Assembly (NCBI GenBank): GCA_017506865.1
Contig: JAFCMP010000412.1
Span: forward strand, 806,001 to 870,000
Length of the DNA stretch: 64,000 nucleotides
Source: Tribonema minus
Taxonomy: Eukaryota > Sar > Xanthophyceae > Tribonematales > Tribonemataceae
Direction of reading: 5' to 3'
Both the position numbers and the translations under genes were made by a program. This document shows positions 10,970 through 54,172 of the stretch, piece after piece (the first letter of the stretch is position 1; each line of letters starts with the position of its first letter). Below the pieces are notes generated by a model. The model saw only the letters and a program-made list of their open reading frames with translations, was not told the DNA's origin and did no database searches.

Positions 10970-13900
10970 ATGGCAGCCAACTGGGACATACTGAGGGCGC
11001 AGACGCAGACGGAGTACAGCGCCCGGAACAGTTACAGTTACAGTTACCCACGCGCAGGTAAGGCTCGTGTGCACTGTTGTGAAGCCGGCTTTGACACAAG
11101 ACCACCCCATTCCAGTATTTCATCAAGCTCTTCTGCGCAGGCACAACGATTTCAATGAGACGCGGAAGCCGGCGGCGGTGGCGATGGCCGCAACAGTAAA
11201 TCATTTCTCACTCACATGATACAGCCTGACGCGATCAGCAGTGCCAGCATGGCAATCTGCTATGCAGCGGCGGCACTGTTGTTACGCGAGCACCACAGTG
11301 CGCCTGCCAGCGCGTGCAATAATGCCGACATTGCGTGATTCTGCGATGAATGCCAAGCGTTGCATTGCTGCCATCGCTGCTCGCATACTGCACCCCAAAC
11401 TGGCCCCCCGCTGTGTCACAGTACGTGTTGACCAGCGTCATGTTCCCAATGTCAGCACTTACCCTCCACCGCACTGCACGGCGCAGATCTGGAGCGGCCG
11501 TGGTCGGCGCGCGGCGCTGAAGTCAGCGCAGCAGCAGCAGCGGCCCGCACCCACTCGCACTCGCCGCTGCTCGGCAATCACGGCCCGCCGCCGCTGCCGC
11601 CGCCGCGCCCGGAGGCGCCTCACCGCCTGTTAGAATCCGCAGCGGCGTGGGACGCAGCAGCAGCAGCTGCGTCCAGCAGAGACGCAGCGGCGGCGGCATC
11701 GGCGGCGGCATTCGAGCGCGGGCGGCGCAGCTCGGAGCCGCCGGGGCCGGACGCGCCGCCGGCGGCGGCGGCGGCAGCGGCGGCATACGGCGGCGGCGGC
11801 AGGGGCGCGGAGCGGCGGTCGCTGTCGCCGCCGGGCGCGGGGTCGATGGTGGCTGGCAGTGGGCCGGCGTCGCTGAGCGGCACGCGGCGCGCGACGGACG
11901 GCGGCGCGGCGGCGGCGGCGGCGGGCGGCGCGAGCAACGGCACGCTCGTGGGCAGGTGCGTGCATGCGTGCTGCCACGCATGCCGGGATTGTCGTGGGTT
12001 TGCCCGCGCCGGCGGTGATGACGCATGGAGCGCCATCTGCATCCAGCGCGTGCCTTTTCGGGTACAGCGTCAGCGGTGTTCGGTGGTTGGTTGGTGTTCC
12101 CAGCCGGTCTTGCAGTTGCGCGCCACACTGCTGGTTGGGTTCAAAGTACACTTTGCGATGCCCCTTGGGGCGCCGTCTCGCTCAAAGTGCATTGTTACGT
12201 GCCGTTGCGTGCCCCACCCTGAGGCACACAACAGCATGGGGCAGTGACCATGCGGCCATTGCTTCAAGTTCAACGCTATGGAGATCTGCCGCGGCGCTGC
12301 AGCATATATCTGCGCAGACTCTCCAATGCAAACACCAACAACAGCGCTTCAGAGCAGTAGCCGACCACGGTGGTAACTTTTTCTCGCCCGACCGTCCTAT
12401 CTCTCTCCCTCTCACGCACGCGCGTGTGGCCATACTTCAAAGCCCCATCATCAAGGTCAGAATGCCCCCTCCCCACAAGCACGCCACGCAGTCACCGTCT
12501 CCTCCCGCCGCTGCCTCTCTCTCACTCCTAACTCCAGGGTCAGGGCGACGCTGTTCGGCTTCAGCAGCGGCACGAGCAACGGCGAGCAGTCGGAGGCGTC
12601 GGCGGCGTCGGAGGGCGTCGAGGAGCTGCGAGCGCTAGGGCGCTGGGCCGTGGCGGAGCAGCCTTCGGGCGACAAGATGCTGTACCGCGCGATGGTGTGG
12701 GTGGGGGACGGGGACGCGTCGCACCAGGAGGAGCTCGGCGTGTACGAGACGCCCGACGCGGCGGAGGAGGCGTGCAAGTGAGTTCAATGTGTGTGTGCTG
12801 GTGTACTGTGGTGGACTGCGGTGGACTGTATGTGCACTGAGAGGAGCTCTGCGAGATGCGCGATGCAGCGGAGGAGGCGTGCAAGCGAGTTCAACATGTG
12901 TGCTGGTGTACTGTGATGGACCTCAGTGGACTGCGTATGTACTGCTAGAGGAGCTCGGCGTGTACGAGACGCCCGACGCAGCGGAGGAGGCGTGCAAGTG
13001 AGTTCAGATGTGTGTGTGCTGATGGACTGTGGTGTACTGCGGTGGACTGCATATATCTGCGAGAGGAGCTCTCGGCGTGGACGAGACGCCTGACGCGGCG
13101 GACGAGGCGTGCAAGTGAGTTCAACGTGTGTGGTGGTGTACTGTGCCGTACCGTGGTGGACTGCAAAGTGCGTTTTGGAGTACTGTGATGTACTTTGGTG
13201 GACTGCACGTGTCGTACTGTTGGCGTATACTTCGGAAGTAGCATACTGCGAGAGGAGCTCGGCGTGTAATAAGACGCCCGACGGACGGATTAGGCCGGCA
13301 AGTGACTTTGCGACTTCAACTGCACTGTGAAGTTGTGTGTGAGTTCGAAGTTGAAGTAGCCATGCCGCAGTGTGCTTTGACGTCCGTCACCAGCAGGAGC
13401 TTGGCGTGTACGAGAATGCGCGGGCGGAGTGGCGGAAGCGGCCTGCGACGTCGCGAGTGCCACACTGCGTGTGGTGTTCTGTGTACTGTTGATGTACCGA
13501 GGATGCACTGCGCCAGCTCGCTACACGATATGCTCGAGGCGGCGTAGGACGCCTGCATTTGAGCCGCGATGTACTGCGCTGTATTAGGATGTACTGTGCA
13601 CTGTTGATGGACGCGCTGTGAGCGACATGAAAGTGCGCACTCGCTTCAGTTCAGAGCTGTGGAAGGCACGCCGTGCTGATGAAGTGTTCATTGCGGGGGA
13701 GGTGGGGGTACGCTGAGAGGAGCAGAGGCGTAGGTAGGTATGAGGCGCTCGCTGTTGCTTAGGGTTAGGGTCAGGGTTAGGGTACTCAAAGTTAGGGTTA
13801 GGGCGCTAGCTACTGCGACCGAGCAAATTTGGTCTCTTGTGTATGGAGGAGAAGAGCTGATGGGAAGCGACGCATACTGCTTCAAGTCCCACATTGGGAC

Positions 13901-16900
13901 AGACGGATCTCTCTCTCTCTGATCTGCACATCAATCGCAGCAGCTCAACACAAGGGGACGCATTGCACCAAGAGGTGCCAGCAGCGAGACGCCAGAAATG
14001 GCAGATAGTTGGCCTCTACTAGGGTGGGAAAAGCACTGAGCTGAGCACTGATTACGCGCCGCTCCCGCGTCCGCAGGGCCTTTGCGGTGCCCAAGAAGCA
14101 GAACGCCGCGCTGTGCGCGCTGTGCAAGAGCTACTTTGGCATGCTGTCGCGGAGGCGCCACCACTGCCGCAACTGCGGGCGCGCCGTGTGCGACGCGTGC
14201 GCCAAGACGTCGTGGCCGTCGTCGATGCTGCCGTTCACGTACAGCGCGGCGAAGCAGGAGCGGTGAGTCAACTTCAAGTATGGATGATTCAACTCATTGC
14301 GCCGTATGCGCACGTGTCTTGAAGTTCGAATATTCAACTCGACGCACCAAGTGCGACGCTGCGCCAAGACGTCGTGGCCGTCGTCCATGCTGCCGTTCAC
14401 GTACAGCGCGGCGAAGCAGGAGCGGTGAGTCAACTTCAAGTAATTGAAAGTTATGAAATTCATATCATTGTGCCTTGTGCGACGCGTGCGCCAAGACGCC
14501 GTGGCTGTCGTCAATGCTGCCATTCATATACAGCGCTGCGAAGCAGGAGCGGTGAGTCAACTTCAAGTGTTGAAAGATCAACTCGTTGCGCCGTGTGCAC
14601 GTCTTAAAGTGTTGCCAATCCAACTGTTGCGCCGTGTGCGCCAAGACATCGTGGCCGTCGTCGATGCTGCCGTTCACGTACAGCGCGGCGAAGCAGGAGC
14701 AGTGAGTCATTTCAAGTGTTGAAAGATCAGCTCGTCACGCCGCGCGCGTTGCGTGCGCCAAGACGTCGTTGCCGTTGTCGATGCTGCCAGTTATCTACAG
14801 CATGGCAAAGCAGGATCAACTTCAAGTACTGAAAATGCGGTGACGACGCACGCTTGTGACGCACCGTAGTTCGCATGGTGACTCAAAATTCAAACTGACA
14901 GTTGGTGATGGACGTGAGCTCCATGCACCGCCGGACGCAGCTCACAGGGTCTTGTCTCAAACCTGCTGTGTGTGGGGTCATCTCACTCTAAGCACGATGT
15001 GTTTCCTAATCCAAACCCTACTCCGCCTGTGAGCCGCACGGCACTGCACGTCAGTGAAGCCGACGCTGCAGCGCTCGACGCATACCATTGCGGCTCGCGC
15101 ACACCGCCACAGCAGCACCATATGCTGCAATGCTGTCCATGCACACAAGTAGGCGTCCTGCCACCGCAGCGCCACCGCAACGCCCCCACTGATGCGTTCC
15201 GTGCTCTCCTCGTTGCATTCCCTCCACCCTGTCACCGCCGCTGCCTGATGCCGCCGCCGCCGCTGCCGCAGCACGTGCCACGCCTGCGACACGTGCGCGG
15301 AGACGAACGAGCGAAGGTCTAACATTCGCATCTCCGCTCTTGGCATGCAGCACACGCACTGCTCATTGCGTTTCCTCTGTCCCGCTGCCGCCGCCGCCGC
15401 TGCTGCAGGAAATGCCGCATCTGCGACACGTGCGCGGAGACGAACGAGGCGTTCCGCGCGGCACTGCTCGCCGGCGACGACGCGGCGGCGCGCGCCGCGT
15501 ACCGCCGCGGCTGCGTCAACCTGCGCTGCCCGTACAGCATCTACCTCAACGGCCTGCCGGTGCACTGCGCCGCGGAGGGCGGCTCCATGGCGCTGCTGGC
15601 GTGGCTGCTGGAGGAGAAGCACTGCCCGCTGTTCAAGGTGTTTACGCGGCGCCGGTTTGCGACGCGCAAGCCCTGGCATGTCCCGCAGGCGTTTCTCAGT
15701 GCGTAGTTTGCGGGTACTCGGTGTGTGCACAGGGCAGCAACTCGCCGCCGCCGCCGCCGCTGCTGCTGCTGCTGCGGCGCGCATGCGCGCTTGCTTGCGC
15801 TGCAGTGCGGCTCCATGGCGCTGCTGGCGTGGCTGCTACATAGAAGAGATATACTGCCCCTGTTCGAGGCGGGGTGTGTGCGCGACCGCGTGTTGTGTGC
15901 GTGCGCGCGCGCGGCGTGCCGCGCTCCTCCTGCGCGTGTAATGAGGAGGGTCGCGTGCGTGCGCTCGTGCGCATACATTCAAACCGGTTGTCAGCCACCA
16001 AAGTTCTGCTGCCCGGAGAACCTACCCCATACACTGCTGGCACCATTTCTCGCTTGTCCTATTGTCGGCTGCCCACCTTCCCCTTTACGGTTTGTTTGTG
16101 CTCCGAACAGGATCTGAGCAGGACGATTGCCCTCGGAAACGGCAGGAAGGAGAGCGTCATGGCGGTCGCCGCACAGAACGGGCACACCCACATTATGAGG
16201 TGGGCCGTCTGGGTAGGTATGCATATGCATAGGATATGTAGGTGTACTGGTGGCACACCGCCAGGGTAGGTATATATATATAGCAGCGCTACGCCATATA
16301 GGGCAAATACCTTTTTAACAATACGTGGGGGGGAAATAGGTATACTGGTGACACAACACCTGGGTATAGCAGTGCTATGTGGTCACAGAGTAGGTTATGT
16401 GAGTAGACCAAATACATATGAGATAACTTTCAATGTGGACATCAGAAAAGGTATCGCTGACATGAGTAATAATTATTATGGGATAGGTGCATTTTGGTAT
16501 GCCGCCTAAAGTGAAGTAGTGCTCTGTTGTCTAGGGTAGCAGCACTGCGGTCGCAGCAGCTGCGCAATTGACGCATTGCACCTCCGTCAAACGGACGGGT
16601 GGCGGTGCAGTCAGCGGCATCAGCGCATCTGACAACTCAGTGACAAGAGTCCGCCAATACTGCGCAGGGCACACGCATGACCATTCTGGCGCTGGTACGC
16701 GCTGGCGCTTGCTTGAATCTGGTCAGCGTTGGGCTTGTAGTTCAAGCAGGGGGGAGAGTCGCAGCGGCTGCTAAGCGGCACGGGCGGTTGTCGCAGTGGG
16801 AGATTGGGTGCACCTTGATGTTTGCCCCCTCCCCGTGCGCCCTGCTCTTCTGATCCAGGTATTGACCAAGGCGATCAGTGGGTGCACTCTTATGTGCAGT

Positions 16901-19900
16901 ACGATGACACCTGCCCCTGTAGCCCACCTGCTCTGCCTTGGTTCAACACAGAAGCGACGCTCACCGCAGGGATTTGGTGTTTGCCCCCCCCCCCCCCCCC
17001 CCCCTGTCCCCCCCCCAATCCCCGCTTACTGCGCCCCCAAATGATAGCCCCCCCCCCCCCCTTCCCCCCCCCCCCCCCTTGCTGACCCCCCATTTGACAC
17101 CCCCCCGCCCTCCCCCCCTTATCCCCGCTTGCCAAACCCCAGGTACCTGCTGCACAAGCACAGCGTCAAGGTCAACGAGATCACGGACCACAAGGCGCTG
17201 TGGCGCGCGCTCGACAAGGCGCTGCGCGAGAGCAGCGCTCAGGAGCTGGGCACGTCCGCCGCCTCGCAGGCGCAGCAGGCGGACGCCGCGTATGAGAGCT
17301 ACGGTGAGCACGCGGGCACGTAACACCTTGAAGTTATCTGATTCATGCTGTAGGCTACAGTGAGCGGAACGAGCCTCTCATTGTACACGCCACTTCGAGC
17401 GTGCTCACTCCGTACCGCATCGCTTGCGAGCATGCCCACTCGTGTGACAGAACTGCAAGCGCGACAGCAGGCGGACGCTGCGTACGAGAGCTACGGTGAG
17501 CGGGGCAAGCCTCTCGTTAGCCACGTCGCTTCGAGCGTGCTCACTCGATGGAAAATCACGCATGCAGGCTAGCACGCCACACCGCACCAATGCATAGCGC
17601 AGAGGCAGACGGAGGCAGCCACAAGGTGACACACACACACTGGTGGTGAAGGGCTGAAGGAAGTGATATTACTATCAACAGAAAACCTGCGCGTGCCAGC
17701 TCAGGCTTGCTGAGTCACCTACACCATTGATCTGGAGCTGATCTCGAACAGCTCGCGAACAAAACTGCACTTCAACTACAACCTGGAGTGCAAACCTCAA
17801 CTAGGGCATCCAACCCTAATTGTGCAACAGCGCCATATTGTAACACACTCCCCCAGTCAAAGCTCCATCCCATGAGCTTGACTGACAAAACGCGCTGGAT
17901 GCCTACTTCCAACTAAGCCTGATGCTTATGTGTGAATGCTCTCACTACATGCAGCCAGAAAAGCTGCACCCCCGTTTTCAACACCCTTTCCCCAGTGTGA
18001 CCGCTGTGGGGAAACAACAGTATCCTGAGGGAAACAATGCCCGCTGCCCTCGAAATCAATTACCACATGCCAGCTGACCTGCACTTCTGCAACCTTGCTT
18101 CTTGTGCTCAGCTACGGCATCGAAACTGTACGCACTGCTGGGTATGCCGCCCTTCTTGTGCGAAGCTCGCCCACTGCTAATGCTGCACTTCTGAGGCCCC
18201 CTCTTCTGTGCGAAGCAAAAGCGATACTGCACTGCTGAAGACCCCCTCTTCTTGTGCAAACCTTCTAATAACTCATCGGCACTGCTACTGCCGGCTGCCT
18301 ATTGCATCCTGCAATGGCACACTGAAATTGGAAGAGCCTGGTACGCTATCCTCTGCGCACACTTGCCCTTAAAAATCGCCATGGCCTCAAACAGGCCCTC
18401 CAGCCAGGGGAATCCGCTCCACCTGGACCTCCTGCGGTAACTCCCGCCACTCCAATTTGCAAGCTGCTGTCCAGCTCCTGCTCATGTCAAGGATGACATG
18501 CGTCGATGATGCCTCACCGCAACCTCCCGTGAAGAAGCGCCTGTTGGCTCGCATCTCCAGACGAGTTTGTCGTCTCCCTGGATCGCCATGCGGACCTTTG
18601 CTGCTGTTGAGCATGAACGGTACCCGCCGGGACACGCTCGAGTCGCCCAGGCTGAACAACAGAGCTCCAAGTCGCATGCTCCAGCTACTCATGCACTATG
18701 TGCATGTCGGCGCAGGCGCATGCCGGCCTCGCCTTCCGCTTATTGATGACCCAGTGGCGTCAAAGCTGGGGACTTCCTTCCATATGCTAGCTACCTCCGT
18801 GAGCGCAGGCTCATAACCGATGGAAAATCACGCGTGCAGGCTACCACGCCACACCGCACCAATGCATAGCGCAGAGGCAGACGGAGGCAGCCACAAGGTG
18901 ACACACACACACTGGTGGTGAAGGGCTGAAGGAAGTGATATTACTATCAACAGAAAACCTGCGCGTGCCAGCTCAGGCTTGCTGAGTCACCTACACCATT
19001 GATCTGGAGCTGATCTCGAACAGCTCGCGAACAAAACTGCACTTCAACTACAACCTGGAGTGCAAACCTCAACTAGGGCATCCAACCCTAATTGTGCAAC
19101 AGCGCCATATTGTAACACACTCGTACCACATCGCTCTCGAGCATGCCCACTCGTGCCTCAGAACCGCAAGCGCGACCGCATTATGAAAGGCTCCATCTAT
19201 GCAGTACGGCCTGCGGGCCCGCAAAACTCTGCACGTACATATATCGGTATGATAGCTGCGGTGAGCGCGCGGCGGCACGCCACGCCCTGCCGCTGTGAAG
19301 TACGCGCAGCAGGGGTGTTGCGGCGCAATCCATTCGCGCAACACTAGCACAGGGCCGTCTTTCACCCGCGCATAATCGTAGGGGAATGTAACTAGGGTCG
19401 CAGCGCGCCCTTGTGAAGAGTTCTGCACGCACTAAAGCGCCCCTTTAATGGTTAACGCACGCACCTTTAGCTGACAGTTACCCCAGTTGGCCAACCCTCA
19501 TCCGCGTCATGAGCCACGCTGGCGGGGGTGCAGCAGGCGGCGCCGCTATTCTCTGACCGCACGAGAGTCATGCAGTGCAGCGGTGCCCCTTCTGTTTATC
19601 TGCGCTACGTGGTCGCCGCTGCGCCATCGTTTGCTGCGGCGAGGCCGCGCGAAGCCCGATCATCCTGCTCCTTCGTTTGCCTTGCTGGTTTCACTTCATC
19701 GCCATCCTGTTCTTTTAAGAGTCAAACCAGTGCGCGTTCTCCCACTCCTCCCATTGACACACTTGCGCTCGCGGCTGGCGCCTTGTGCGCGAACCGGCAG
19801 TGCCCCACTGCAAGCGGGCCGCACCATGCACCCCTACTGTCAGGTGGTGCATCCCAATGGTGTCGTCTCCCTACCTCAAATTTGAAGTGTTTGCACTCAC

Positions 19901-21297
19901 TTACCGGAAATGCCCTCGCTTGTGCAGCTTCTTGCTTCCCGCGCGTGCATTGCGCCGCTGACACTCGCGACGCACGCCGTTTGCGCCCTGCACCCACTGC
20001 ATGCCGCATTCACGCACACATCGGCATGAAACATCCTTTGTTTTTTGTCCCTTTTCATTTGGTCTACGCGCAGTGCACGACGCACTCTGTGTGTACTCTG
20101 CGCCCACTGCCCATTGCGGTCTTGCACTGCATGTACGCGTCTTCAAATGCCTTTTCTCATCCGTGTGCATGCATGCCATCCCCCCCTCGCCCCCCCCCTC
20201 GCGCAGTTCACGCGCCGTCGGCGCCGCTGTTCGCCACGGCGGCGCCCGTCGACAACAACGACTGCATCATCTGCTTTGAGCGCGAGCGCGACTGCACGCT
20301 GGTGCCGTGCGGCCACCACGCCTGCTGCCAGCAGTGCGCGGCGCAGGTGAGCGCTAGTGGTGTCGCTAGCATGCCTGCGATTCACGTCAAGGAGCCACAG
20401 ACCGGTGGTGCGCCTCGTAGACCGTGCCACTGCGCAGTGCTGTGGTGTGCGTTTCAAAACGACGCAACGACGCCTGCTGCCAGCAGTGCGCAGCGCAGGT
20501 GAGCATTTTGGCAATGTCACCCATGTAGCGTGCGCTCCATGTCACGGAGTTTCAGACCAGTGGTGCGCCTTGTGCTCTTTGCCACTGGACAGTGCTATAC
20601 ATATATATAGAGCTCTGCGATCTTTTGATTCGTTTTCATGTATATTGTGTGCGTTTCAAAACGACGCCCTCGTGCCGTGTGGCCACCACGCCTGCTGCCA
20701 GCAGTGCGCGGCGGAGGTGAGCTTTGATGGTGTCACTACATTAACGCGCTGGCGGTTCATGTCACGGAGTTGCAGACCAGTGGTGCGCCTCACGCCGCAG
20801 GGCCAGAACAACACCGTGCCACTGCGCAGGGCTATATATGGTTTGCGTTTCAAAACCACTCCCTTGTGCCGTTGGGCACCACGTGTGCCGCCAACAGTGC
20901 GCGGTGCAGGTGAGCTTCGGTGGCGACCCCATGTAGTGCCGCTGTCAACAAAAAGATCCTGGCCTACCACCACTGGCCAATGTCTCTCAGTCCTGGGGTC
21001 ACTTGCCTGCCAACTCCTGCAGGAGGGCACTTTGTGGAAACGTACGCTGCGGTGCGACCGGTGTTGTGTCGCATGCCCGGCTGGCTCAGCCGACAGCAGC
21101 ACGATGCAGACGCTGACGCAACATGCATGCCGTACTGCACGCGCTCAACATCGCCAGCGACGCACCATGGACGCACGCTGACCGATGTCCACGTCTCTCA
21201 TCTCACTTTTGTGCCTTGCTGCTCTCTTTGGCAGTTCAATGAGTGCCCCGTCTGCAGAGCGGTGGTGCAGCAGGTGGTGCGCACCATCAACGTTTAG
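10970..21297 (+). CDS. FYVE–ankyrin–RING protein, nine exons, 554 aa
   Basis: Exons: 10970–11057, 11487–11955, 12538–12777, 14077–14262, 15409–15637, 16111–16199, 17143–17303, 20207–20346, 21235–21297. They sum to 1665 nt, and every phase matches across GT–AG introns. Residues 30–186 are Ala/Gly/Ser-rich and disordered. Residues 279–336 form a FYVE zinc finger (C279/C282, RRRHHCRNCG at 291–300, C304/C307, C330/C333), which binds phosphatidylinositol 3-phosphate on endosomes. Residues about 340–440 are ankyrin-like (VHCAAEGGSMALLAWLLEE, VMAVAAQNGHTHIMRYLL). Residues 507–541 are a C3HC4 RING (C507, C510, C522, H524, C528, C531, C538, C541), implying E3 ubiquitin ligase activity. The likely role is an endosomal E3. 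The FYVE finger is split by intron 4 and the RING by intron 8. Introns are packed with exon-edge duplicates. The Met1 exon is supported by phase only. Confidence 0.85.
12841..13440 (+). repeat. Five tandem decayed copies of the exon 3 end plus donor site
   Basis: The true exon 3 end (from GAGGAGCTC at 12728 to the donor at 12778) recurs within intron 3 with copies starting at about 12841, 12948, 13063, 13252 and 13394, spaced about 107–189 bp. The copies at 12948 and 13063 keep the peptide-level sequence and a perfect GCAAGTGAGTTC donor. The first and last two are increasingly mutated. They could act as alternative or decoy 5' splice sites. Confidence 0.85.
13757..13805 (+). repeat. Interstitial telomere-like TTAGGG repeat
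   Basis: About six TTAGGG or near-TTAGGG units in intron 3 of the FYVE–RING gene, interrupted by TCAGGG and a short ACTCAAAG spacer. Confidence 0.8.
14347..14830 (+). repeat. Four tandem decayed copies of the exon 4 end plus donor site
   Basis: The last ~70 bases of exon 4 (the Cys-pair region through AAKQER) with donor and the following TCAACTTCAAG motif recur at about 14347–14440, 14476–14570, 14625–14725 and 14735–14830. The first two keep an intact GGTGAGTCAAC donor. The third has AGTGAGTC, and the fourth has lost the donor. Confidence 0.85.
15257..15320 (+). repeat. Upstream copy of the exon 5 start with acceptor-like sequence
   Basis: A copy of the acceptor region and first ~50 bases of exon 5 (GCGACACGTGCGCGGAGACG and flanks) lies about 140 bp upstream of the true acceptor at 15409. 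A matching copy of the exon 5 end (GGCTCCATGGCGCTGCTGGC and flanks) lies downstream in intron 5 at about 15805–15880. Thus both edges of one exon are duplicated outward. Confidence 0.75.
17345..17546 (+). repeat. Tandem copies of the exon 7 end and donor in intron 7
   Basis: An imperfect copy of the exon 7 end (GCGGACGCTGCGTACGAGAG, then CTACGGTGAGC) lies at 17466–17500, with a shorter remnant near 17352. Each is followed by the same intronic stretch (CTTCGAGCGTGCTCACTC). The second of these stretches is interrupted by the LTR-type element. Confidence 0.75.
17547..17850. repeat. Left LTR
   Basis: Copy 1 of the 304-bp direct repeat. It starts near GATGGAAAATCACG and ends in TGTAACACACTC. The exact terminal bases are uncertain because the flanking CACTC overlaps the repeat end. 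Confidence 0.7.
18819..19122. repeat. Right LTR
   Basis: Copy 2 of the 304-bp direct repeat, the same length as the left copy with about two substitutions near its start. Confidence 0.7.
20467..20915 (+). repeat. Three tandem copies of the exon 8 (RING) end plus donor
   Basis: Copies of the RING segment ending CACGCCTGCTGCCAGCAGTG, GCG, then GTGAGC occur at about 20467–20500, 20668–20717 and 20861–20910, each followed by related intronic sequence (GTTTCAAAACGACG and CATGTCACGGAGTT). The middle copy preserves the peptide PCGHHACCQQCAAE and its donor. None has a convincing acceptor of its own. Confidence 0.8.
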
Positions 21298-34100: not shown

Positions 34101-35496
34101 TTGTTGTTGCAAAAGCTTATTATTTCAAAAAGTGCTCGGCCTTTTCAATTCACCATCGTAGCACAGTAATCACACGGCATCGACACGGGAGGGGTATGTG
34201 CAGAAAGCTACAAGCTTCAGCATCAGCTTTCAGATCATAATGGGTTATTTACTTGGCGATTTGCAACACCTATAATGGAGGTTACTCGCGTCGGATGATA
34301 CTCATGGGGCAGAGACAGCATGCACATCGTGTAGGTTGAGTGACTCAAAATGTGTCGTGGTACACCCCAAAGGCGCGAATGGAATGTACAAGAAGTTTGC
34401 CAACTTCAAGTCATGACGTGCCAAGACGCGCAGACAGTATGTATGACTCCTGCGGGTCACTCCTGCATGAGCACCTTCTGATTGGCTCCAAAGAGCTCAA
34501 AGAGCACCTCTCCCCCGCAGGCAGCAACTGCAGCACCTTTGTGGATTACTCATGTCACCCTGCGAACTTTCGTGTGCCAAGCATGTGACGCTCCTCTGTA
34601 CCCCCCTGGTGCCCCCCCCTGCGCGCAAGACAACGCGTACAAGTACCGCGGTGTCATCTACCTGTAGTATATTCATGTCACCCTACGACTTTCGTTTGCC
34701 AGCATGTGACGCTCCTCTGTACCCCCCTCGCGCCCCCCTGCACAGGAGAACGCGTACAAGTACCGCGGCGTCATCTACCTGGCGGGATCCGCGTCCGCGG
34801 AGTTCTTTGCGGACATTGCGCTGTGCCCCATGGAGATGGTCAAGGTCAAGGTGCAGACGTCCCAGCCCGGCACCTTCCCCACCGGTGAGGCGCTGATTGA
34901 GCACCCCTCGTTGTAAGTTTTATTGCATTTGAAGTCAGAAATACACCCAAAGTTGTACACCTTCCAGCCTGGCTCCTTCACCACCGCTGAGGCACTGATT
35001 GAGCACTCCTCGCCATAGGTTTTTCATTGCATCTGAAATGAGATGCGCATGGCACAGCCCTGTAACTTCCCCACCGGTGAGGCGCTCATCGCTCCTCACA
35101 CAGTACACATGAATGCATACAGAATTGTGCACTCCTCAAATTGCACACACCGTACACATGATGGCATACAGCGTTGTGCTTTTCTCACATTGTACGTAAC
35201 ATTTCATACAGGATTGTGCACTCCTCGCATTGTACATATGCCGGCGGGCCTACTGCCACAACTGCCTTGCCCCGCTCGGCAGTTGAGCGCTGCTCAAGGG
35301 TCTCTTGCAGGTCATGTGGGGCAGGTGACGGAGCGCTTGTTGCAGCTGCAGCGGCTGGCGCGCTGGAAGTGAATGGGGGCTTGTGAGTGGGGGGGCAAGG
35401 GGGGCGGGGTCTCGAGGGCTTGCATTGGTTGTTGGCAGTTTGAGCGGCAGGGGGAGAGGGGGGGGGGGGGCGCTCTGATCACGAGGTTCTGAAAGC

Positions 35497-41873: not shown

Positions 41874-43370
41874 GCCGCTGCGCACTGCACAGCAGATGAG
41901 GAGCACGCTGTCGGAAGCTACGCATTGCGGTGGCGCAGGGTGGCAGCGCTGACGTCGTCGGCGCACGCGGCGCGGCGGCAGTGGTGCCGTTGAGTGCCGC
42001 TGCATTGGCGGCAGCGGCGCGCGTTGCACTCGCACAACGCGCAGCAACAGTCGTGCAGCCGTCAGTACTTGAAACTGTCGCAGGATGGCAGCTCTCAAAT
42101 GCAGCCAGAGCCAGTGCCGTTCAGGCACTCATCGCAAGATCCATCATGGGGATGGACTGCGGCGGCGGCAGCAGCTGTGCGGACTGCGCACGTGCTAGTT
42201 CGCTGCCGGTGGCGGCTAGAAAGCTGTGCAGACAGTGTACACAAAAGCGCCACAACGTCCATGCAACAGCGCCACAACGGCCATGCAACAGCGCCCGGCA
42301 TGACGCGCACAGCAACTCGTGCACATGGCCACGCATAGTCGTTAGATCTGTGTCCAATATTAGTATACACTGGCCTGTGCCGCCTTGAGTGGCACCCTGT
42401 AGATATGTAGAGCCCATCATCTCATGAATGTACATATGACCCTGCGGTCTGTGCGGCCGTGGCGTTTTTTTGCTGTTGTGTATGTGGGTTTCCTGTCATG
42501 TTTCAACTGACCATTGAAGGTGTCTCGTCTCACCTTCACACACCCTAGTAAGACTCATTCTGCATGAAGGTACATGCAGCTGTCGGCTTCTGACCCTTAG
42601 CCCTGCCATATGATGCTCATGGCACAATTGCAAAGCAATGTACAGAGAGGACTGCAGAGGGGACTGACAATGCCGTACATGCGCACCTGGAAAGATCAGC
42701 ACATCACCTGCTGTTGTCACTCTGGCGCGTGCATCACTTCTTACACATTCTTATGTATCTGTGTTTGAGGTTGGCTTTGCCCGACACATGGAGCCACCGT
42801 CACAAGGGACTTTTGGAAGAGACTATTGACAGGACACTTGTGTTAAAAATGCACTCTGCAAATATTCTTTGCTGGCATATGATGGTGACCGAACTTATTT
42901 TTGCCAACAGCACATAAAGCTTCTGGCCAGCCAGCAGCCTTGGGGATAAGAATTATTATCCCCTATCAGCAGCACATAAAGCAGCCGGTCACTAGTTCGG
43001 CCTGGGCTTGATGGCGGTGAAACATCAGAGCACACCTTCGCTGCGAATGAGCTGCTAACTGTGCCGAGGTGCTCACAACTGTCTGCAGCAAGAGTGAGAC
43101 GTGTACAATCTAATACGTAAATGGTACACAAGACGATGGTCTGTGGTGCATCATCTCTGTGGCTGAAGCATAACATGCTTTGGGGTTAGGTGCTGATGAG
43201 CAGCGCCTTATCTGTGTGTATCAGCTGTAGCCGCTGACAATCAAAGCGTGAGCGTGCGAGCACACGATGACTCGCGACGAGTTGAAGTTTTGTGTACGAA
43301 CTTCAACAAAAATGCAGAGACAAGCAAGCCACGTCTCGCGCCCCTGGGAAACACTTTGAGTCCAACAGCC
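41874..43370. other. Intergenic, no gene seen; one hairpin
   Basis: About 1.5 kb. A hairpin GGGGATAA-GAATTA-TTATCCCC lies at 42942–42963, with 8-bp stems and a 6-base loop. No T-run follows in the usual place, and it is not near a gene end. Otherwise nothing is recognised. Confidence 0.45.
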
Positions 43371-45155
43371 ATGTCCTCCGAAAGCAATGTTGCTGGAACA
43401 GCTTCAGAGGAAAGCGTACCGTCGCAGAAACACCTCAAGCACGCACACGGGGATGATAGTGGGAGCCTGGACAAAGTAATCGGAGTGCTGTCAGTGATGG
43501 CTCAGACTCGATTATTGCCCAAGGAGGCGTGGGGACTCTGCAGATCGATTCACCGAACAGCGAGACCGGTGGTGCACCTGCGGCCTGAAGGAAATCAGCC
43601 AGTGGGTTCGGCGGCTCTGGCGTTTGTCACCAAAACTATTGCTTACCTGACGCTCCATGGCCCTTTCGAGTCAGATCCGATGCTTGCCCTCGCAGCCGGT
43701 GCGGGCGCAACGGATAACCTGAGTTTCTTCTTCAGGGACGTCAAGGTCATGAATCCGTACCGGCCTGGCTTTGAACTCCCGCACATTCCGCGGTCGCTGC
43801 GGGAGCTGCACCTGCACCTCGGCTACTGCGACTTCAGCCCCGCTCTCTTGTGTGTACTGCTGCCCGCACAAGGTCTTCCCACACACCCGTGGAATCCTCG
43901 GACGGATGCGCGAGCGCCAGCGAGCCGCCCTGCTGATCGCGATGCCGCGTCAGCGGCGCGCTTGCCGGAGCAGGTCTGCGGCCCATCGACGCTGACGTCG
44001 CTCAGCCTCCAGTACTACCCCACCAGCCTGTCAGACGTCGCCGCCTCACTGCCTGCGCTCACGGCGCTGTCACTGGACGGCCAATACCACCTTGCGCACG
44101 TGCCGGACAGTGTCGGCGACCTGACTGGGCTCAAGCGGCTGGCGCTGCACAACTGCCGTCTGCCCGCGGGCCTACCCGAGAGCATCAGCGGCTTGACACA
44201 GCTGACCGCGCTGTTGCTGCCGTGCTGCTCGCGTTTGGGACGCCTGCCGGACGGCATTGGCGGCCTGACAGCGCTGGCGCAGCTGGACCTGAAGAGCTGC
44301 CGCGAGCTCTCGTCGCTGCCTGACAGCCTCGGCAGCCTTAGCGCGCTGACCACGCTGGACCTGAGCGGCACTTCACTTGTTAGTGTGCCCGAGACCATCG
44401 GCGGCTTGTCCGCGCTCACAGCGCTCAACCTGGACAGCTGCAGCGCGCTCGCCCGCCTGCCGGAAAGCCTGGGCAGCCTCGCCGCGCTGAAGACACTCAT
44501 ATTGAGTAAATGCAGCGCGCTCACCCGCCTGCCGGAAAGCCTCTGCAGCCTCGCTGCTCTGGCAACGCTCGACTTGCGCAGATGCAGCAGGCTCCGGCAA
44601 CTGCCAGACAGCATCGGCGATCTGGCAGCGCTGCTGGCACTCAACCTCACCGGCTGCGGCAGCCTTGAAGCGCTGCCAGACGCCATCGCGCGACTGGCGG
44701 CGCTGACGTTGCTCCGCCTGGGCGTCTGCACGTCGCTGGCGCGCGTGCCGGACGGCATCGGCGGTCTGCGCGCGCTGACCGACCTGGCGCTTCCAGGATG
44801 CTGCGCGCTCGTAGCCCTGCCGGAGACCATCGGCGACCTGGCGGCGCTGACGTCCCTCAACCTGAGCGGCTGCCGAGTGCTGGCGCGGCTGCCGGAGTCC
44901 ATCGGAGAGCTGGCGGTGCTGAAGACCCTCCACCTGAGCGGCTGCCGCGCTCTGACGCAGCTGCCGCAGAGCATCGGCGCGCTGGCGGCGCTTACGGCCC
45001 TCAACCTCAACGGATGCCGAGCGCTGACGCAGCTGCCGCGAAGCATCGGCGCGCTGGCCAAGCTTCAGCGGCTCGACCTCCGCAACTGCTCGCGGGCGCT
45101 GCGGCAGGGCTTGCCAGACGCGATCGTGCGGGTGACGCAGTTTGACATTGAATGA
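43371..45155 (+). CDS. Leucine-rich-repeat protein, intact family member, 594 aa
   Basis: A single exon. The frame is open a further 41 codons upstream, but the start at 43371 (MSSESNVAG) is set by alignment with the starts of the other three copies. Residues 1–190 are a conserved N-terminal region (LDKVIGVLSVMAQTRLLPKE, AWGLCRSIHRTARPVVHLRP, IPRSLRELHLHLG), with a possible divergent F-box-like helix set at 35–70. Residues about 200–580 are some 16 LRRs of 23–24 residues with the consensus LPxSIGxLAALTxLNLxxCxAL. This matches plant/protist-type LRRs, a curved protein-binding solenoid. There is no signal peptide, kinase or NB-ARC domain. It is probably an intracellular interaction or adaptor protein; the partner is unknown. 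Three sister copies in the window (22.7, 57 and 60 kb) are broken, so this may be the functional parent. Confidence 0.85.
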   Translation: MSSESNVAGTASEESVPSQKHLKHAHGDDSGSLDKVIGVLSVMAQTRLLPKEAWGLCRSIHRTARPVVHLRPEGNQPVGSAALAFVTKTIAYLTLHGPFESDPMLALAAGAGATDNLSFFFRDVKVMNPYRPGFELPHIPRSLRELHLHLGYCDFSPALLCVLLPAQGLPTHPWNPRTDARAPASRPADRDAASAARLPEQVCGPSTLTSLSLQYYPTSLSDVAASLPALTALSLDGQYHLAHVPDSVGDLTGLKRLALHNCRLPAGLPESISGLTQLTALLLPCCSRLGRLPDGIGGLTALAQLDLKSCRELSSLPDSLGSLSALTTLDLSGTSLVSVPETIGGLSALTALNLDSCSALARLPESLGSLAALKTLILSKCSALTRLPESLCSLAALATLDLRRCSRLRQLPDSIGDLAALLALNLTGCGSLEALPDAIARLAALTLLRLGVCTSLARVPDGIGGLRALTDLALPGCCALVALPETIGDLAALTSLNLSGCRVLARLPESIGELAVLKTLHLSGCRALTQLPQSIGALAALTALNLNGCRALTQLPRSIGALAKLQRLDLRNCSRALRQGLPDAIVRVTQFDIE

Positions 45156-46598: not shown

Positions 46599-46661
46599 CT
46601 AGACGTTGAAGGTGCGAACCACCTGCTGCACCACCACTTTGCAGATGAGGTATTCCTAGAA
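46599..46661 (-). pseudogene. Dead inverted copy of the RING gene's last exon
   Basis: On the minus strand CTGCTCTCTTTGGCAG is followed by a 63-base segment of exactly the length of exon 9 of the FYVE–RING gene. It ends VVVQQVVRTFNV-stop versus VVQQVVRTINV-stop. The second codon is now TAG, and the first zinc Cys of the CPVC pair is lost (YLIC). It therefore cannot complete a RING. Confidence 0.85.
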
Positions 46662-46711
46662 CTGCCAAAGAGAGCAGCTTGGCACAAAAGTGAGGTGACA
46701 GATGTGAGCAC

Positions 46712-47637: not shown

Positions 47638-50600
47638 ATGCCCGACAGAGGTTCAACCACCAGGCAGCAGCACCGCAGAGCCTTCGGCGGCAACGGAGGG
47701 CCTACGCCAGGAAAGCGGCTGGAGCACGCATGTCCAGGCAGCGAGGCCTCGGTGACTACTTCTGAGGAGACCCTCAGCCCCATGACTGCAGCCACCATGG
47801 AAGCAGAGGCAGCAGCTTACGCTTTGAAGAATCGTACCGATGTCCACACTGGCTACGGCAACCCCTTATATCTTGGGCGCAGCGGGGCTGGCGAAGGTTT
47901 CTGCCGTCGTCAAGCATGGTTCCCCGGATCCGCATCGGCCGCGGCTGCAGCGCAGCGCAGGGCAGATCCTACCGAATGTAACTCCTCTCTAACGAGCACG
48001 GATTCCACGGCTTCCGAGGCAGGCTTGCGCTCCTTCAGTCCCTTTACCACACGCAGCCCCGTCGGGCCTGCATCTAGGGGAGTTCAGGGACAGCAAGAGT
48101 TCTTGCCTCCCCCAAAACCGCGCAGCCTGGCTGCCTCGGCGTCTGGCAGGTTCGCCTCTCTGACAATCGACCACTCCACGGCATTACCGTACGCACCTGC
48201 GTCTACAGCAACCTCAGCGTTTCAGGCGGGAGTGCCGACGCATGTGTTGGATAGGAAGGGAGACGTGGCGCTGCTGCAGGAGGGAGAGCTATTGCCGACG
48301 GTGGATGTCACAAAGGCGAGGGCCCGGCTGTTCAACGTCCGCAAGGTACGTGCCGGCATGGCTCCATTTCAATGTTCGCCGCTGGAGTCCATGTTGTGAT
48401 GTCATGTCGTGCAACAGGCAACAACATGCAGACGTGTGAATGGCGTGCCCTCAGCAGATCCGGCACGGCGCCATGACCCGACATAACCTCGCGTCATTTG
48501 AGTACGTACACACACAGGCGAGCGGTGTTCGGCAACCTGAGGCTCAGCGGATGCGTGCACGCAGTTTCGCGTGCTTTCGCCAGGGCAGTACATAGTGCCA
48601 ATGCAACTCATTCGTTCGTGAAGCGCTGTACCGTCCAGTCGACTTGAGTATCTGCTGCAGCTGGGTGCCACAACCAACTTCTGGAAAACCTCCGCGCTGG
48701 TACTTTCGAACCAACTTCGCTCTAGATCGCTGAATCGACTCTTTGACAACACTTTAGGGGTTTGCAAATGCATCTCTAGTTCTGCACGTGCATAGCAAAC
48801 TAAGGTGTCTTGTTTGTCTCGTGAAGCAAGTACTCGTGCGCTGATAGTCGGACCAGGCTTGTGCGACAGTTTGACTGTTTTGGTGCCCTCTTTTGACTGA
48901 CTTACAGATTCCAGGCACAATGACAGTACCAGCATCAGTTCAGATGCATCATGCCATACCGTCAGCGCTGTCTTGAGGGTCCATCATATCAGTTTGACCA
49001 AGGAACCAGAAAGCTTCATGCCTGTCATCGCCAAAGATGCAGCAAGTAGAGCACCGCTGGGCGCTGGCTTCGTTGCTCGCCGCAGCAGCACGCTGCATAA
49101 TCACAGCATATGCGCATGCACCCACGCAGAGCCCATAGCGGAAGCAGTCGTGCTCGCCATCTGATCTTGCTATGGCGCCGCGAGAGAGCAACGCAGCCTC
49201 GCCACTTGTGTTCGGTAGCGTTCATCAGTTGATGTGGGTGCGCTTGCGTGGCGCACTCCGCGTCCTTTGTCTGCACGCCGTGCGCGGACAAGCGTGCATG
49301 CAGGGAAAGGCATGGCACCACACCACGCACGGCGCGCGGCGCAGCCGCACTGCTGCCAATGATTCTACCCATCATGACGCCGACACTGGGGCTTGTGTGA
49401 CAGCACGCCGTCACGCTCAGCCCGTACACGCAGCCGCACACGCCGCGGCACACGCCTTGAGGCATGTCGGCGCTTGCACGCCCCTTTTCAATTGCCGCGC
49501 GCCGCCCGCCCGCTGCTGACGCCCCCCCATCACGCGTGCGCAGCAGCACGCTACCGACATGGCTCAGCTGCAGCGCCGGCCCTCTGAACGACAGCGATGC
49601 TCATTGAAGCAAGCTCGTGAAGTACAGCAATTACGTGCTGAGCGCTGCTACTCTGCGCGCGGCTCAGCCGCAGCACAGGCCCTCTGGCCTCCAACGATGC
49701 TCGTTGAAGCAAGCTCGTGAAGTGGCGCAGCTGCACGCTGAGCGCTGCTGCTCCGCCCTCTCCTTGCGCGCAGGCCGCCAAGCAGGGCCACACGGCGGCG
49801 ACCAAGCTGGACCGCAAGCCATGTAAGGGCGCCGTCACGGGGCTCGGCGCGCTCAACATGGAGATGCTCAACAAGCACCGGCCGGACTTCTCGGACCTGG
49901 TGACGTTCCAGGAAATGCAGGCGCACACGGTGAGTTTGAGGGCGCGCCTCCTGAGTAGCCGCAGCTGTATCCGCCGCTGTCGCGGTGCGGGTGCGCTTCG
50001 CTTCGGCTGCTAGCACTTTTGCCCTCAGCAAATTGTGCCTGGAGAGGTGTCGCCTGCTGGTGAGCTCTGCTTCTGCGCAGCAGGCCTGCAATGCGCGATG
50101 CGGTGTGCTGCGCTGCTGCGATGCCGCCAGCGCCGCACAAGTTCACGCGCCGCTTCACATGACGCAGCTGCTGCGCGGCAGCACCGCCGCCGCTGCGGTG
50201 CTCCGGCAGCCAGCCGGCCCGCAGCTGCCGCCGCGCCACACGCGTCGCCTGAGTGCCCTGTTGTCTGGCATCACACCAAACGGCGACACTCCCCGAACAG
50301 CAAACGGTAACACACTACCCCGGCGTGCCGCAAGACATGACGCTCATGACCCCCCCCCCCCCCCCTCCCTGCAGGGCCCCATCTGGTGCGTCGAGTTCTC
50401 GCACAGCGGCATGACACTCCCCAAATAGCAAGCGCTGACACAGTTGGCGTGCCGCTCACAACGCTCCCCCCGCCCCCCCCGCAGGGCCCCATCTGGTGCC
50501 TCGAGTTCTCGCACAGCGGCATGCTCTTTGCGACGGGCGGCGCGGACGGCGCCGTGCGCGTGTGGCGCGTCACCGCCGCCGTCGAGCACCGCGCGGCGCC

Positions 50601-53600
50601 GCCGCCGCCCATCAACTGGGCGTCCACGCCCAAGTACTCGCAGGTGGCGCAGTACAAGGCGCAGTGCTTCTCCGCGACGGTGAGAGTGGGGCGTCGCCGC
50701 CGTCGGTTGCAGTTGCGGTTGGGCCGCATGGCTGCCGCTGTTTGCGTCTCATGCGGGTGCGGCGGTTTTGCGGGGTGTGTCGTCTCTGCGTTGCGCACTG
50801 CGGCTAGTCTCGTGGACGAGCTGACGAGCTCAGTAGCCTCCTTGAGCTATGCGTCTTGCGAGCAGCGTCTCGGCGACAGTGTTTGAGGTTCACCCCCTGC
50901 CGTATCCCCCCCCCCCAAACACTCGAAATCTGCATGCGCTAGACTCGCTCTGCACATTGCGTCAGCTTCGCATTGCCCGAGATGCCATCATAGCCGTGCA
51001 CCCCACCCAAACCTGCCACAGCCCCTCCTCCATCCGTCACACTCAAATCCCCCCCCCCCCCCCCCCCTTGTCCCCCCCCTCACACACACGCACAGAACGC
51101 CGGCAGGCCGCAGAGCGCGCCCATGTGGCGCTCTGTCACGCCGTCCGCCGCGCTCACGCGCTCGCCGGAGCCGTGGGCGCGCAGCCCGGCGCCGCGCGGC
51201 TCGTTCTCCGCGGCGTCGTCGCCGGCGCACGGCGGCGGCGGCAGCGCACACGGGGGGTTTCCCGCACTGCAAGTGACGGACCAGCTGTTCCGGTCGCGCC
51301 CGGCGGCGGAGCTCACCGGTGAGCGCCGCTTGGTTGACGGTCGGAAAGAGTGCTCGCAGTATCTGTAGTTTAGCTTGAGCTCGGTGCATGGGGGGGCGAC
51401 GTGCCACCGGCGGTGGCGGCGGCGGCGAGGTCCGGTGGCCCTCTGAGCCGGGTCCGCGTTGTTGTGCTGCACTTATTTGCGCAGTATGTGTGCACATGTT
51501 GTCGCATGTCTTGAATCGCCGCGCAGCCTCTGACCCCCAGCGCCTCCCCCCCGCCCCCCCTTCTACCCCCTCTGCACTTGCGCAGTATGTATGCGCACAT
51601 TGTCACATGGTGCAAGTGACCGCGCAGCCTCTGACCTCCAGCGCCTCCCCCCCCCCCCCCTCCCCGTACAACCCCCCGTTAGGCCACACCGCGGACGTCA
51701 CGTCGGTCGCGTGGACCGCCGACGGCCGCATCCTCACGGCGTCGCTCGACGGCACGGTGCGCGTCTGGCGCCTCGCCGCCGCCGTCGCAGCGCTCAGCAC
51801 GGCCGCCGCGACGCCCGGCGCGGCGACGCCGCTTGCCGCGGCGACGCCCGCGACAGGCGGCGGCAGCAGCGGCGGCGGGGGCAGCGCAGCGGCGGTATGC
51901 GAGCGCGTCTTCGCGTCGCACGAGGCGGTGGCGTGCGTCGCGGCGCACCCGCTCAAGCCCGCGTACTGCGTGTGCGGGCACCTCGACGGGCGCGTGAGCG
52001 TGTGGGACATTGACGCGGGCGCGCTGACGTACGTGCGGCGCGTGACGCCGAGCGCCGCCGTCGCCGTCTCGGCGGCGGCGTTCACGCACGACGGCAGCAC
52101 CGTCACGCTCGGCTTTGGCAACGGGACCGTGCAGGTGGGGGGTGGATGCGGGGCGTTGTGTTTTGCGCGCTGTCTTGCGCTCGGCGTGCATGTGTGCGTG
52201 ACCTGTGCGCTGCCATGCGGGGTGAAGATGATGAGTGGGCAGGGGCAGCTGCAGGACTGACGGAACGCTTGCCACGCACTGCGCGCGACTGCACGAGAGC
52301 GTGCATGCACATCAGCGGGCAGAGGTGGAAGGAGGGAAGGCCCAAAATTACCACCACAGACATGACCGGTCAGCCCCATTCTCACGGCTGCAAAAGCGCA
52401 CTCGAGCGTTGCACTCACCACGCCCCCCCATCCCCCCCCCCCGGTCTCAGGTGCGTGAGAGCCGCACCATGCAGCTGCGCCAGACGGCGGACGTGCGCAC
52501 GAGCCGCGCGGAGACGCACACGGCCGTCACCGGCTTCGCCTTCCGCCGCCTCTGCCGCGCGGTCGTCGTGGGCGCGCGCGGCTCCAAGGCGCGCGTTCTC
52601 GAGGCGTCCGACTACCGCGGCAGCGCTCAGGGCGCGGCGCTGTGCGAGGCGCGCACGCTCGCGCGCGCCGCCAAGCTCAAGGGCGCCACCGTCACCGGCC
52701 TCACCATCAAGCCGTCGCTCAGCGACGACGACCGATATGTCATTGGCGGCTCCGAGGACGGGCGCATCGTCATCTGGGACGCCGGCTGCGCGGGCGGCGG
52801 CGGCGGCGGCGGCGACGCGGAGCCCGGGTTCGAGCGCTGGCGCCTCGACCCCGCGCGCGCCGACGGCGACATCACCGTCCCCACGTGCGCGCTCTTCGTG
52901 CCGTCGCCCGCCGTGCACCACTGCGTCGAGCAGGTGATCGCCGCCAAGGCGGGCGCCGCGGACTTCGAGGCGGTCGCGGCGGCGGCGGCGGAGGCCGCGG
53001 CGGAGGCGGCGGCGGAGGGCGCCGCGGCGGCGGCCGCGCGCGCGCGCGTCCCGCGCCCGCACCGCCGCACCAGCTTGAGCGCGCTGCGCAGCAACGGCGT
53101 GTCCGGCGCGGCGAAGCGCAGCCTCAGCTGCGACAGGGCGCCCGTGGCCTCGGCGCCGCCGGCGGAGGTCGACGGCCTGGCGGCGGTGGCGGCGGCGGCG
53201 GCGGTGCGCAGCGCCGCCGGCGTCGCGGCGCGCGGCGCGGGCGGCGTCAGCAGCAGCCAGCACCGCGCTGTTGTGCACGGCCGCGTCAGCGCGGAAGCGC
53301 AGCGGCTGCGCTCGCTGAGCAACGCGAGCGCGACGACAGTGGTGGGCGGCGGCGGCGCGTGTGGCGGCGGCGGAGGAGGCGGCGGCAGCGTCGCCGGCAC
53401 GCCGCAGCGCGGCGCGGGGGGCGCGGTGGTGGTGATGATGACGCCGCGCGTGCTCGGCACGCCTCGCGCGGACGCGTCGCCCGCGCACCGGCGCGGCGCC
53501 GCCAACGTCGTGGAGGCGCTGCACCTGGGGCAGGTGCGTGATGATGCTCAGGGGGTTAGGGTTGGGATTAGGGTTAGATAGTGCCGCGCAGTGCAAATGT

Positions 53601-54172
53601 CGGGTGATGATGCTCAGGGATAGGTTAGGGCTAGATGGTGCCGCGGTGCCAACTGTTGGGTGATGATGCTCAGGGCTAGGGTTAGGGTTAGGGATAGGGG
53701 TAGGGTCAGGGTTACATGGTGCCGCGCAGTGCCACCCTTTGGGTGATGATGCTCAGGGTTAGGGCTAGGGTTGGGGTTAGGGTTAGGGCAAGGTGGTGCC
53801 GCGGCGCACCTGCAGTCTGTCTGCACAGCGGGTTGTGTGGGCGCTGCTGCGTGCAGCGGCTCAGCGCAGCCCGGACAGGTCTCTTACAGCATGCGCTTGA
53901 CACTGCACCTGCCGCGTGCTGCGCATCTTAGATGATGACGATGATGCTCATGCCCCCCCCTCAAATGTGTTTTTTTTCCCCTTGTGCAGGGCGCGCGCTC
54001 GTCCGCGGGGCGCCTGCAGAGCTACCGCAAGTGCACGGCGGCGGGCGGCTCGGACGTGCCGCGCAACTCCATGGTCATCGCCGCAGACACCACGGGCCGC
54101 GTCCACGTCTTCTGCCGCGCCGCCGTCGCGGAGGAGTGGTCCACGGCCGGCAAGGCGGTACGCCGCCGCTGA
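47638..54172 (+). CDS. WDR44-like WD40 protein, seven exons, 999 aa
   Basis: Exons: 47638–48345, 49774–49929, 50485–50679, 51096–51318, 51683–52134, 52451–53533, 53990–54172 (3000 nt, phases consistent). Residues 1–260 are low-complexity Ser/Thr/Ala. WD40 blades follow: GPIWCLEFSHSGMLFATGGA, VRVWRV (289–320); ELTGHTADVTSVAWTADGRI, LTASLDGTVRVWRL (about 425–460); VFASHEAVACVAAHP, CGHLDGRVSVWDI; AAAFTHDGSTVTLGFGNGTV; TAVTGFAFRRLCRAVVVGARGSK; ATVTGLTIKPSLSDDDRYVIGG, DGRIVIWD (about 655–690); MVIAADTTGRVHVF near the C-terminus. Blade order and the FRSRPAAELTGHTADV junction match WDR44/Rabphilin-11, a Rab11-binding endosome-recycling protein. A 230-residue Ala/Gly-rich insert separates the last two blades. 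Rab binding itself cannot be read from the sequence. Confidence 0.85.
49558..49773 (+). repeat. Tandem repeat just upstream of the WDR44-like exon 2 acceptor
   Basis: Two units of about 108 bp (49558–49665 and 49666–49773) share GGCTCAGC-GCAGC-C-GGCCCTCTG, GATGCTC-TTGAAGCAAGC and GCTGAGCGCTGCT. The second ends at the exon acceptor. Confidence 0.8.
50375..50428 (+). repeat. Upstream copy of the WDR44-like exon 3 start, ending in a stop
   Basis: A poly-C tract, CCCTGCAG, then GGGCCCCATCTGGTGC and TCGAGTTCTCGCACAGCGGC repeat the true acceptor and exon start at 50485 about 110 bp upstream, but read into TAG at 50426–50428. Use of this acceptor would truncate the protein. Confidence 0.85.
51480..51655 (+). 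repeat. Acceptor-proximal tandem repeat before WDR44-like exon 5
   Basis: Two units (about 51480–51560 and 51583–51655) share GCGCAGTATGT, GCGCAGCCTCTGACC and CCAGCGCCTCCCCCC, immediately before the exon 5 acceptor at 51683. Confidence 0.7.
53534..53815 (+). repeat. Tandem repeat carrying interstitial telomeric TTAGGG arrays
   Basis: Four units of about 70–100 bp in intron 6 of the WDR44-like gene. Each starts GTGATGATGCTCAGGG, runs through two to six TTAGGG-like hexamers, and ends TGGTGCCGCG(C/G). The first unit begins at the donor itself (CAGGTGCGTGATGATGCTC), so the array grew from the exon–intron junction. Confidence 0.85.

Follow-up and report, generated by a model that had tools for sequence, protein, structure and literature searches.

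Copies of exon edges with their splice sites in adjoining introns of Tribonema minus

Analysis of exon-intron junctions in Tribonema minus showed that many introns contain decayed copies of the edges of their own exons. The copies were confirmed as real and not the product of chance, both in the 64,000-bp stretch of contig JAFCMP010000412.1 that was analysed (the window) and beyond it, and they appear to be harmless scars left by recurrent duplication of local DNA at exon-intron borders. We favour, with confidence somewhat above even, an origin in duplications that cross splice junctions and stem from break repair or template switching; these would be tolerated through use of the original site and would then decay.

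The genome searched is eukaryotic and comprises 158 Mb in 554 contigs; base counts gave the window a GC content of 59%. Gene names used here (FYVE-RING, carrier and WDR44-like) are labels from a preliminary description of the window, and domain evidence supported a mitochondrial-carrier domain and WD40 repeats among its genes. Matches to light-harvesting proteins numbered 92 in the genome, and the one query tested found fucoxanthin chlorophyll a/c proteins as its best match, as would suit an alga that probably has chlorophylls a and c. Sampled introns typically began with GTG(A/C)G and ended with a C-rich stretch and GCAG.

Within the window, 36 junctions (17 donors and 19 acceptors) of the FYVE-RING, carrier and WDR44-like genes were read by hand. 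Sixty exon bases at each junction were aligned to the adjoining intron, and a score of 40 or more was taken as a strong copy. Strong copies of a junction's own edge were found at 9/36 junctions (6/17 donors, 3/19 acceptors), while 0/894 mismatched exon-intron comparisons reached this score, bearing out the preliminary claim of exon-edge copies in adjoining introns. That description had named 15 places. Ten proved to be edge copies, reaching the exon edge or stopping at most 4 bases short of it; one was weaker, and four were repeats confined to the intron.

Six of the ten lie in the FYVE-RING gene, on the plus strand. The end of exon 3, with its donor GT at 12778 (region 12728–13415), is followed by an intronic array whose units are cut at 12840, 12946, 13063 and 13242, with a fragment at 13388–13415 and 79–86% identity between units. 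The end of exon 4 (donor 14263) has four intronic copies within 14190–14815, at 14353–14424, 14479–14551, 14629–14700 and 14751–14815, with identities of 97, 90, 96 and 85%, respectively. For exon 5, both edges were copied. Its start (first exon base 15409; region 15249–15448) has an upstream copy at 15249–15311 that matches from exon base 5 (88.9% identity, score 57), and its end (donor 15638; region 15566–15869) has a copy at 15796–15869 in which GT has become GC (80.5%, score 66). The end of exon 7 (donor 17304; region 17273–17546) has a copy at 17465–17501 (score 52), alongside a second local repeat, 17354–17410 / 17490–17546. The end of exon 8 (donor 20347; region 20299–20923) is followed by three intronic copies, whose equivalents of the donor lie downstream of it at distances of about 152, 370 and 563 nt.

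In a minus-strand gene, the exon start at 26014 (first exon base; region 25987–26169) has an upstream copy at 26081–26169 with 86.8% identity over 91 bp, the exon part being identical at 26/28 bases. BLAST brought this acceptor to light, and it was read on its own, outside the 36 scored junctions. The remaining places are on the plus strand. The carrier donor at 32999 (region 32957–33282) has a copy at about 33040–33081 (score 74), and its intron holds an additional, intron-only copy near 33204. At the carrier acceptor with first exon base 34746 (region 34547–34781), the unit copied to 34547–34664 runs from the end of the intron through its C-rich tract and the AG into the start of the exon, with AG changed to AA in the copy (87.3% over 118 bp, score 62). 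The weaker case is the carrier donor at 34885 (region 34848–35043), where a copy at 34950–35043 has CT for GT; the edge score was 34, and the BLAST match (78.7%, E 2.7e-14) takes in the intronic part. The WDR44-like acceptor with first exon base 50485 (region 50285–50523) has an upstream copy that spans the end of the intron, the AG and some 40 nt of the exon, 38/39 of the exon bases being identical (score 73).

The four intron-only repeats, also on the plus strand, contain no exon-edge copy. A tandem repeat at 36922–37370 (81.5%, score 17) ends 8 nt before 37379, the first base of the last carrier exon. Repeats at 49561–49756 and 51477–51660 lie before the WDR44-like acceptors at 49774 (just upstream of it) and 51683, and an array with GGGTTAGGG telomere-like units runs from the WDR44-like donor at 53534 (53535–53788), leaving the exon part uncopied. 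Across the genome sample described below, telomere-like repeats were not significant companions of the copies, being near 6/25 junctions with a copy and 13/105 without (p 0.20).

To extend the analysis beyond the window, a genome sample was assembled from exons anchored by three Pfam families. There were 201 Pfam matches, and the 95 lying in fetched blocks were used. Manual curation removed matches interrupted by in-frame stops and an apparent duplicate locus (C256), and the sample excludes loci L062, L063 and L073, which were unplaced. The 85 merged exons yielded 137 junctions above the score cut-off, of which 130, in 53 blocks and near conserved domains, had enough intron and distinct edges. 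These junctions are predicted ones. A full gene-finding HMM was tried for exon calling and gave many spurious micro-exons; boundaries were instead scored exon by exon from the Pfam anchors.

Strong copies in a junction's own intron were found at 25/130 sampled junctions (17/70 donors, 8/60 acceptors), against 0.12 expected by chance, and at 0/130 of the same junctions when the reverse complement was searched. The affected junctions fell in 16 of the 53 blocks. The exon-edge excess seen in the window therefore recurs elsewhere in the genome. Two paralogs, C101 and C146, were both counted; with C146 removed the figure was 21/126. With window and sample pooled, about 27% of donor edges and about 14% of acceptor edges were affected, with 46 copies counted at 23 donors and 13 at 11 acceptors. 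Donors exceeded acceptors weakly (p 0.054).

The copies look local. Of the tests made, 15/90 found the exon edge in the adjoining intron and 0/90 found it in the intron at the exon's other end, and mismatched exon-intron comparisons gave almost no matches. Three queries were searched genome-wide, namely a single exon edge and two stretches of adjoining intron. The exon edge, 14190–14262 at FYVE-RING exon 4, gave matches at five places, all in its own locus, with none reported elsewhere in the genome at E ≤ 0.001, and the two intron stretches were unique. These results bear on the idea that the copies are introners, other mobile elements or assembly artefacts. Mobile elements are described as making introns in diverse eukaryotes (PMC9860276), yet all three DNA queries matched their own locus alone rather than related sequence in many introns; most copies are diverged by several percent, unlike assembly duplicates, and copies differ between the paralogs C101 and C146. 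We regard this as the least probable of the explanations considered.

Both paralogs carry an ATP-synthase alpha/beta domain (PF00006) and have in common a 302-bp stretch at 97% identity, while their introns are only partly alignable. The copies of C146 at two junctions comprise four of the exon start, lying upstream and all preceded by AG, and three of the donor edge; at the equivalent junctions of C101 neither type was found, the best scores being 19 and 27. Both paralogs have copies at a third junction (donor 1624). The C146 copies are mostly slightly nearer to C146's own exon than to that of C101 (for example, 76/79 versus 72/77), although one donor copy is nearer to C101 (34/39 for C146, 35/39 for C101). 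As judged from sequence comparison, this suggests that copies were gained in C146 after the paralogs split, probably recently; the alternative is loss in C101.

The preliminary description had proposed a process centred on the junction, and the distribution of copies along exons and introns agrees with this. When the probe was slid into the exon by 0, 30, 60, 90, 120 and 180 nt, matches fell from 25/130 through 12/130, 5/126, 1/113 and 0/99 to 0/70, so that the signal dies away over about the first 120 nt of the exon. An aggregate profile was built from the sample and window junctions together (87 donors and 79 acceptors, counted ahead of the removal of low-complexity segments). Copies were found for 23–24 of 84 donor edges and for 15/235 deep-intron probes (three offsets pooled), a ratio of 4.5 (24/84 versus 15/235, Fisher p 7e-7). 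The first intron bases after the donor (+10) gave 9/72 and the exon interior at −180 gave 0/74. At acceptors, 11–12 of 76 edges had copies, falling to between 0/70 and 1/71 in the exon interior from +60 on.

Loci L002–L008 were tried as a repeat background (159/1500 random windows) and dropped because they had been fetched for a simple repeat common to them and the window. Four window stretches were substituted and gave 14/1500; these stretches are small and of unproven intergenic status.

The main competitor to a true junction bias is ordinary tandem duplication, uniform along genes, with the junction pattern arising by survivorship. Under this explanation exon-only duplications would be weeded out, and those spanning a junction would remain identifiable for longer, the exon being frozen and the introns turning over fast. 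Such an origin was simulated with single tandem duplications, uniform placement, exon positions 1 and 2 nearly frozen, identical detection and three age ranges. The simulated edge/deep ratio was 0.9–1.3 and the edge/+10 ratio 1.1–1.3, against 4.5 and 2.3 observed. Since the observed edge/deep ratio exceeds that from uniform duplication, a junction bias in duplication is likely. The simulation was run without rapid intron turnover, which could lift the edge/deep ratio, by our estimate to about 2. The intron-side excess near donors, two-fold over the deep intron (9/72 versus 15/235), was non-significant (p 0.13), as survivorship would allow, and the partial alignability of the C101 and C146 introns despite their 97%-identical exon stretch fits fast turnover as well. 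The exon-edge excess itself is strong; a hot spot and fast intron turnover are both candidate sources of it.

The copies show two structures. Among the 23 first donor copies, 9 covered at least 90% of the repeat period and are plain tandem units with intron included, as uniform duplication would produce; 2 covered 70–90%, and 12 less than 70%. Eight of these 12 end at most 12 nt from the donor, and at least one (C224:3059) is an alignment failure through indels. Also in keeping with survivorship, 32/130 sampled regions carry repeats with both copies intronic, some of them being exon-edge arrays. Filler-separated copies, however, are no simple tandems. At C68:4096, 62 identical bases in a row surround the copied donor, similarity then stops, and filler lies between original and copy; the abrupt stop also counts against the mechanism that we favour. 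Taken with the simulated ratios, such copies lead us to consider survivorship less likely than that mechanism, though a serious contender.

In the mechanism that we favour, a stretch spanning the exon-intron border would be duplicated locally and in direct orientation, and duplicated units of this kind, in which the exon edge and splice site come with part of the adjoining intron, were found. The unit most often comprises the last 30–120 exon bases, the 5′ splice site and some intron. Donor copies are placed about 80–570 nt deeper in their own intron, and acceptor copies upstream. The source is probably a repair or replication error, either staggered-break fill-in with end joining or a template switch, and joining with or without extra bases would give filler-separated or clean tandem duplications. 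The duplication would be tolerated because splicing at the original exon-proximal site, presumably still in use, gives the same mRNA. The copy would then decay and leave the intron longer. That the copies lengthen introns, as had been proposed, holds in the direct sense that each added copy makes its intron longer.

The cause of the junction bias, like the break or template-switch origin, is inferred. A bolder version of the mechanism, which we hold as tentative, is a donor-centred mutational process that keeps copying exon edges and splice sites into introns and so drives their lengthening and fast turnover genome-wide; it might act, for instance, through transcription-linked nicking at 5′ splice sites and fill-in of 30–120 nt staggered breaks. 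The first AG tends to be used in splicing, and for this reason an acceptor copy, being placed upstream, may be more harmful than a donor copy.

Comparison of copies with their exons was used to examine decay. The 31 donor copies from the genome sample (the window's 15 not included) differed from the real exon 61, 47 and 109 times at codon positions 1, 2 and 3 over 1954 aligned bases, and of their 26 indels 24 shifted the frame. This pattern fits an exon changing mainly at third positions and a copy changing everywhere, and indicates that the copies decay mostly like non-coding DNA. Copies located by their intronic part gave identities of 0.915 for exon and 0.837 for intron (12/16 had exon homology), near the 1:2 ratio of divergence that would follow from free mutation of one exon copy alone, with the exon part more alike in only 8/12. 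A lenient aligner, used in a test for perfect tracts, gave intron identities of 0.75–0.82 against a random baseline of 0.76, and these are therefore uninformative on intron homology. The same test had been considered for gene conversion, with patchy perfect tracts in 17/37 copies at p < 0.05; it was confounded by alignment tails and discarded as evidence.

The preliminary description also suggested that the copies could supply decoy or alternative splice sites, and selection might then keep them in that role or as mini-exons. The donor hexamer in copies is indeed 96% identical to the real donor. The claim that copies include the splice dinucleotides stood for most, with GT kept in 33/37 edge-reaching donor copies and AG in 7/10 edge-reaching acceptor copies, and failed for those of 15638 and 34746. 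The GT figure is about what 8% divergence would leave, and thus near the neutral expectation. Left ends of copies showed no excess of AG (17/46 versus 18.8 expected), and the pattern of differences, with its excess at third positions and its frame-shifting indels, is in line with non-coding decay. Between copies of the same edge, exon-derived parts were more alike than intron-derived parts (0.871 versus 0.735; exon higher in 14/15 homologous pairs, 8 families). Simple neutral decay does not predict this, and it stands as a residual point favouring constraint; the likely cause is ascertainment, since the copies were found by exon similarity. A decoy or alternative splice-site function is thus unsupported, and selective retention appears improbable.

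If they are scars of duplication, the copies would be useful in their own right. An exon edge held by selection beside a freely decaying copy is a datable mark of intron growth, where introns usually hide their history, and junction-crossing duplication is here common enough for rates, break points and bias to be measured. If the donor excess holds, it would tie transcription or splicing to local mutation. The convincing but false splice sites that the copies bring into introns also complicate gene annotation.

Several known systems resemble parts of this pattern. Human introns reportedly arose from tandem arrays, according to Zhuo and colleagues in 2007, and the association of tandem arrays with introns is the likeness to the present case. 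Introners are a described source of introns (PMC9860276, PMC7789003). Intron gain by tandem duplication is reported as established (PMC3443670), and the Rogers/Hellsten model described there likewise involves local duplication of exon sequence with splice-site motifs. In that model a duplicated exonic AGGT gives both ends of a new intron, whereas the copying here starts from an established junction and adds to an intron already in place. Birth of the introns by this documented route, with the copies as remnants, would account for exon-derived sequence sitting inside introns. Yet in 15 window introns (the one longer than 2.5 kb being left out of the end tests) there was no sign of new introns. 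Neither the upstream exon end and the intron 3′ end nor the downstream exon start and the intron 5′ end matched (scores 10–23), and the copies lie at variable depth, many bringing intron bases along. Intron birth is consequently given very little credence.

Short direct repeats at intron ends have been attributed to break repair (PMC11782384; PMC2809761 for Drosophila, citing work on Daphnia). They resemble the copies as a possible repair signature near splice sites and, as described, in having unrelated sequence between direct repeats. The published repeats measure 4–30 bp in PMC11782384 and at least 8 bp in PMC2809761, and lie at both intron ends; the present ones are about 30–120 bp, with both copies at one intron end. 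Comparison of the first and last 100 nt of the same 15 window introns gave scores of 10–22 and no direct repeat at both ends, in a test blind to repeats of 4–10 bp.

The nearest precedent is the potato RdRp gene, in which a tandem duplication is described as crossing an intron-exon boundary and bringing splice signals along (PMC4974935). The preliminary remark that the phenomenon has no standard name was thus partly right, such a duplication having been described for one potato gene. In the open-access literature on introns, duplication and splice junctions, surveyed mostly at the level of abstracts, exon-edge copies at the present frequency were absent from the papers listed. Single cases of junction-crossing duplication are therefore already published, and the scale seen here is apparently new within the literature surveyed. 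The potato case, as reported, is a single recent duplication from which a new intron arose, whereas in T. minus the copies affect about a fifth of sampled junctions and are more frequent at donors, often multicopy, and decayed.

Telomere-like GGGTTAGGG repeats were found in two introns of the window, at 13762–13803 and at 53553–53788, the latter within the array that extends from the WDR44-like donor. The window contained nine matches against 0.15 expected, and 66 occurred in 232 kb of sampled blocks, part of which had been fetched for a shared simple repeat. A genome-wide search with a telomere-like 21-mer returned 8567 overlapping hits, among them the array that opens contig C2. Anchored exon gave no hits in 24 kb; the rest of the sampled sequence, 170 kb, held 59. 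These repeats may be marks of repaired breaks.

Intron 7 of the FYVE–RING gene carries a pair of 305-bp direct repeats (17546–17850 and 18818–19122; 99.3% identity, spacing 1272 bp) which looks like a young LTR-type insertion. The pair lies close to a decayed array of exon-edge copies. Elsewhere in the window, a 1.06 kb direct repeat of 97% identity (54984–57071) lies beside leucine-rich-repeat-like genes, of which one is confirmed by Pfam (43200–45155) and two are recognised by similarity (57000–58900 and 59840–61740). These genes have the look of a locally expanded family.

Long, almost pure C runs precede several window acceptors (e.g. 33628, 36380 and 50485), and acceptors in the genome sample were likewise C-rich; the polypyrimidine tract at these sites is largely C.

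Two paralogous ATP-synthase alpha/beta domain (PF00006) genes, on contigs C101 (821038–826242) and C146 (1167605–1173137), share near-identical exon stretches, while their introns can be aligned in part only. Such a pair lends itself naturally to measurements of intron turnover.
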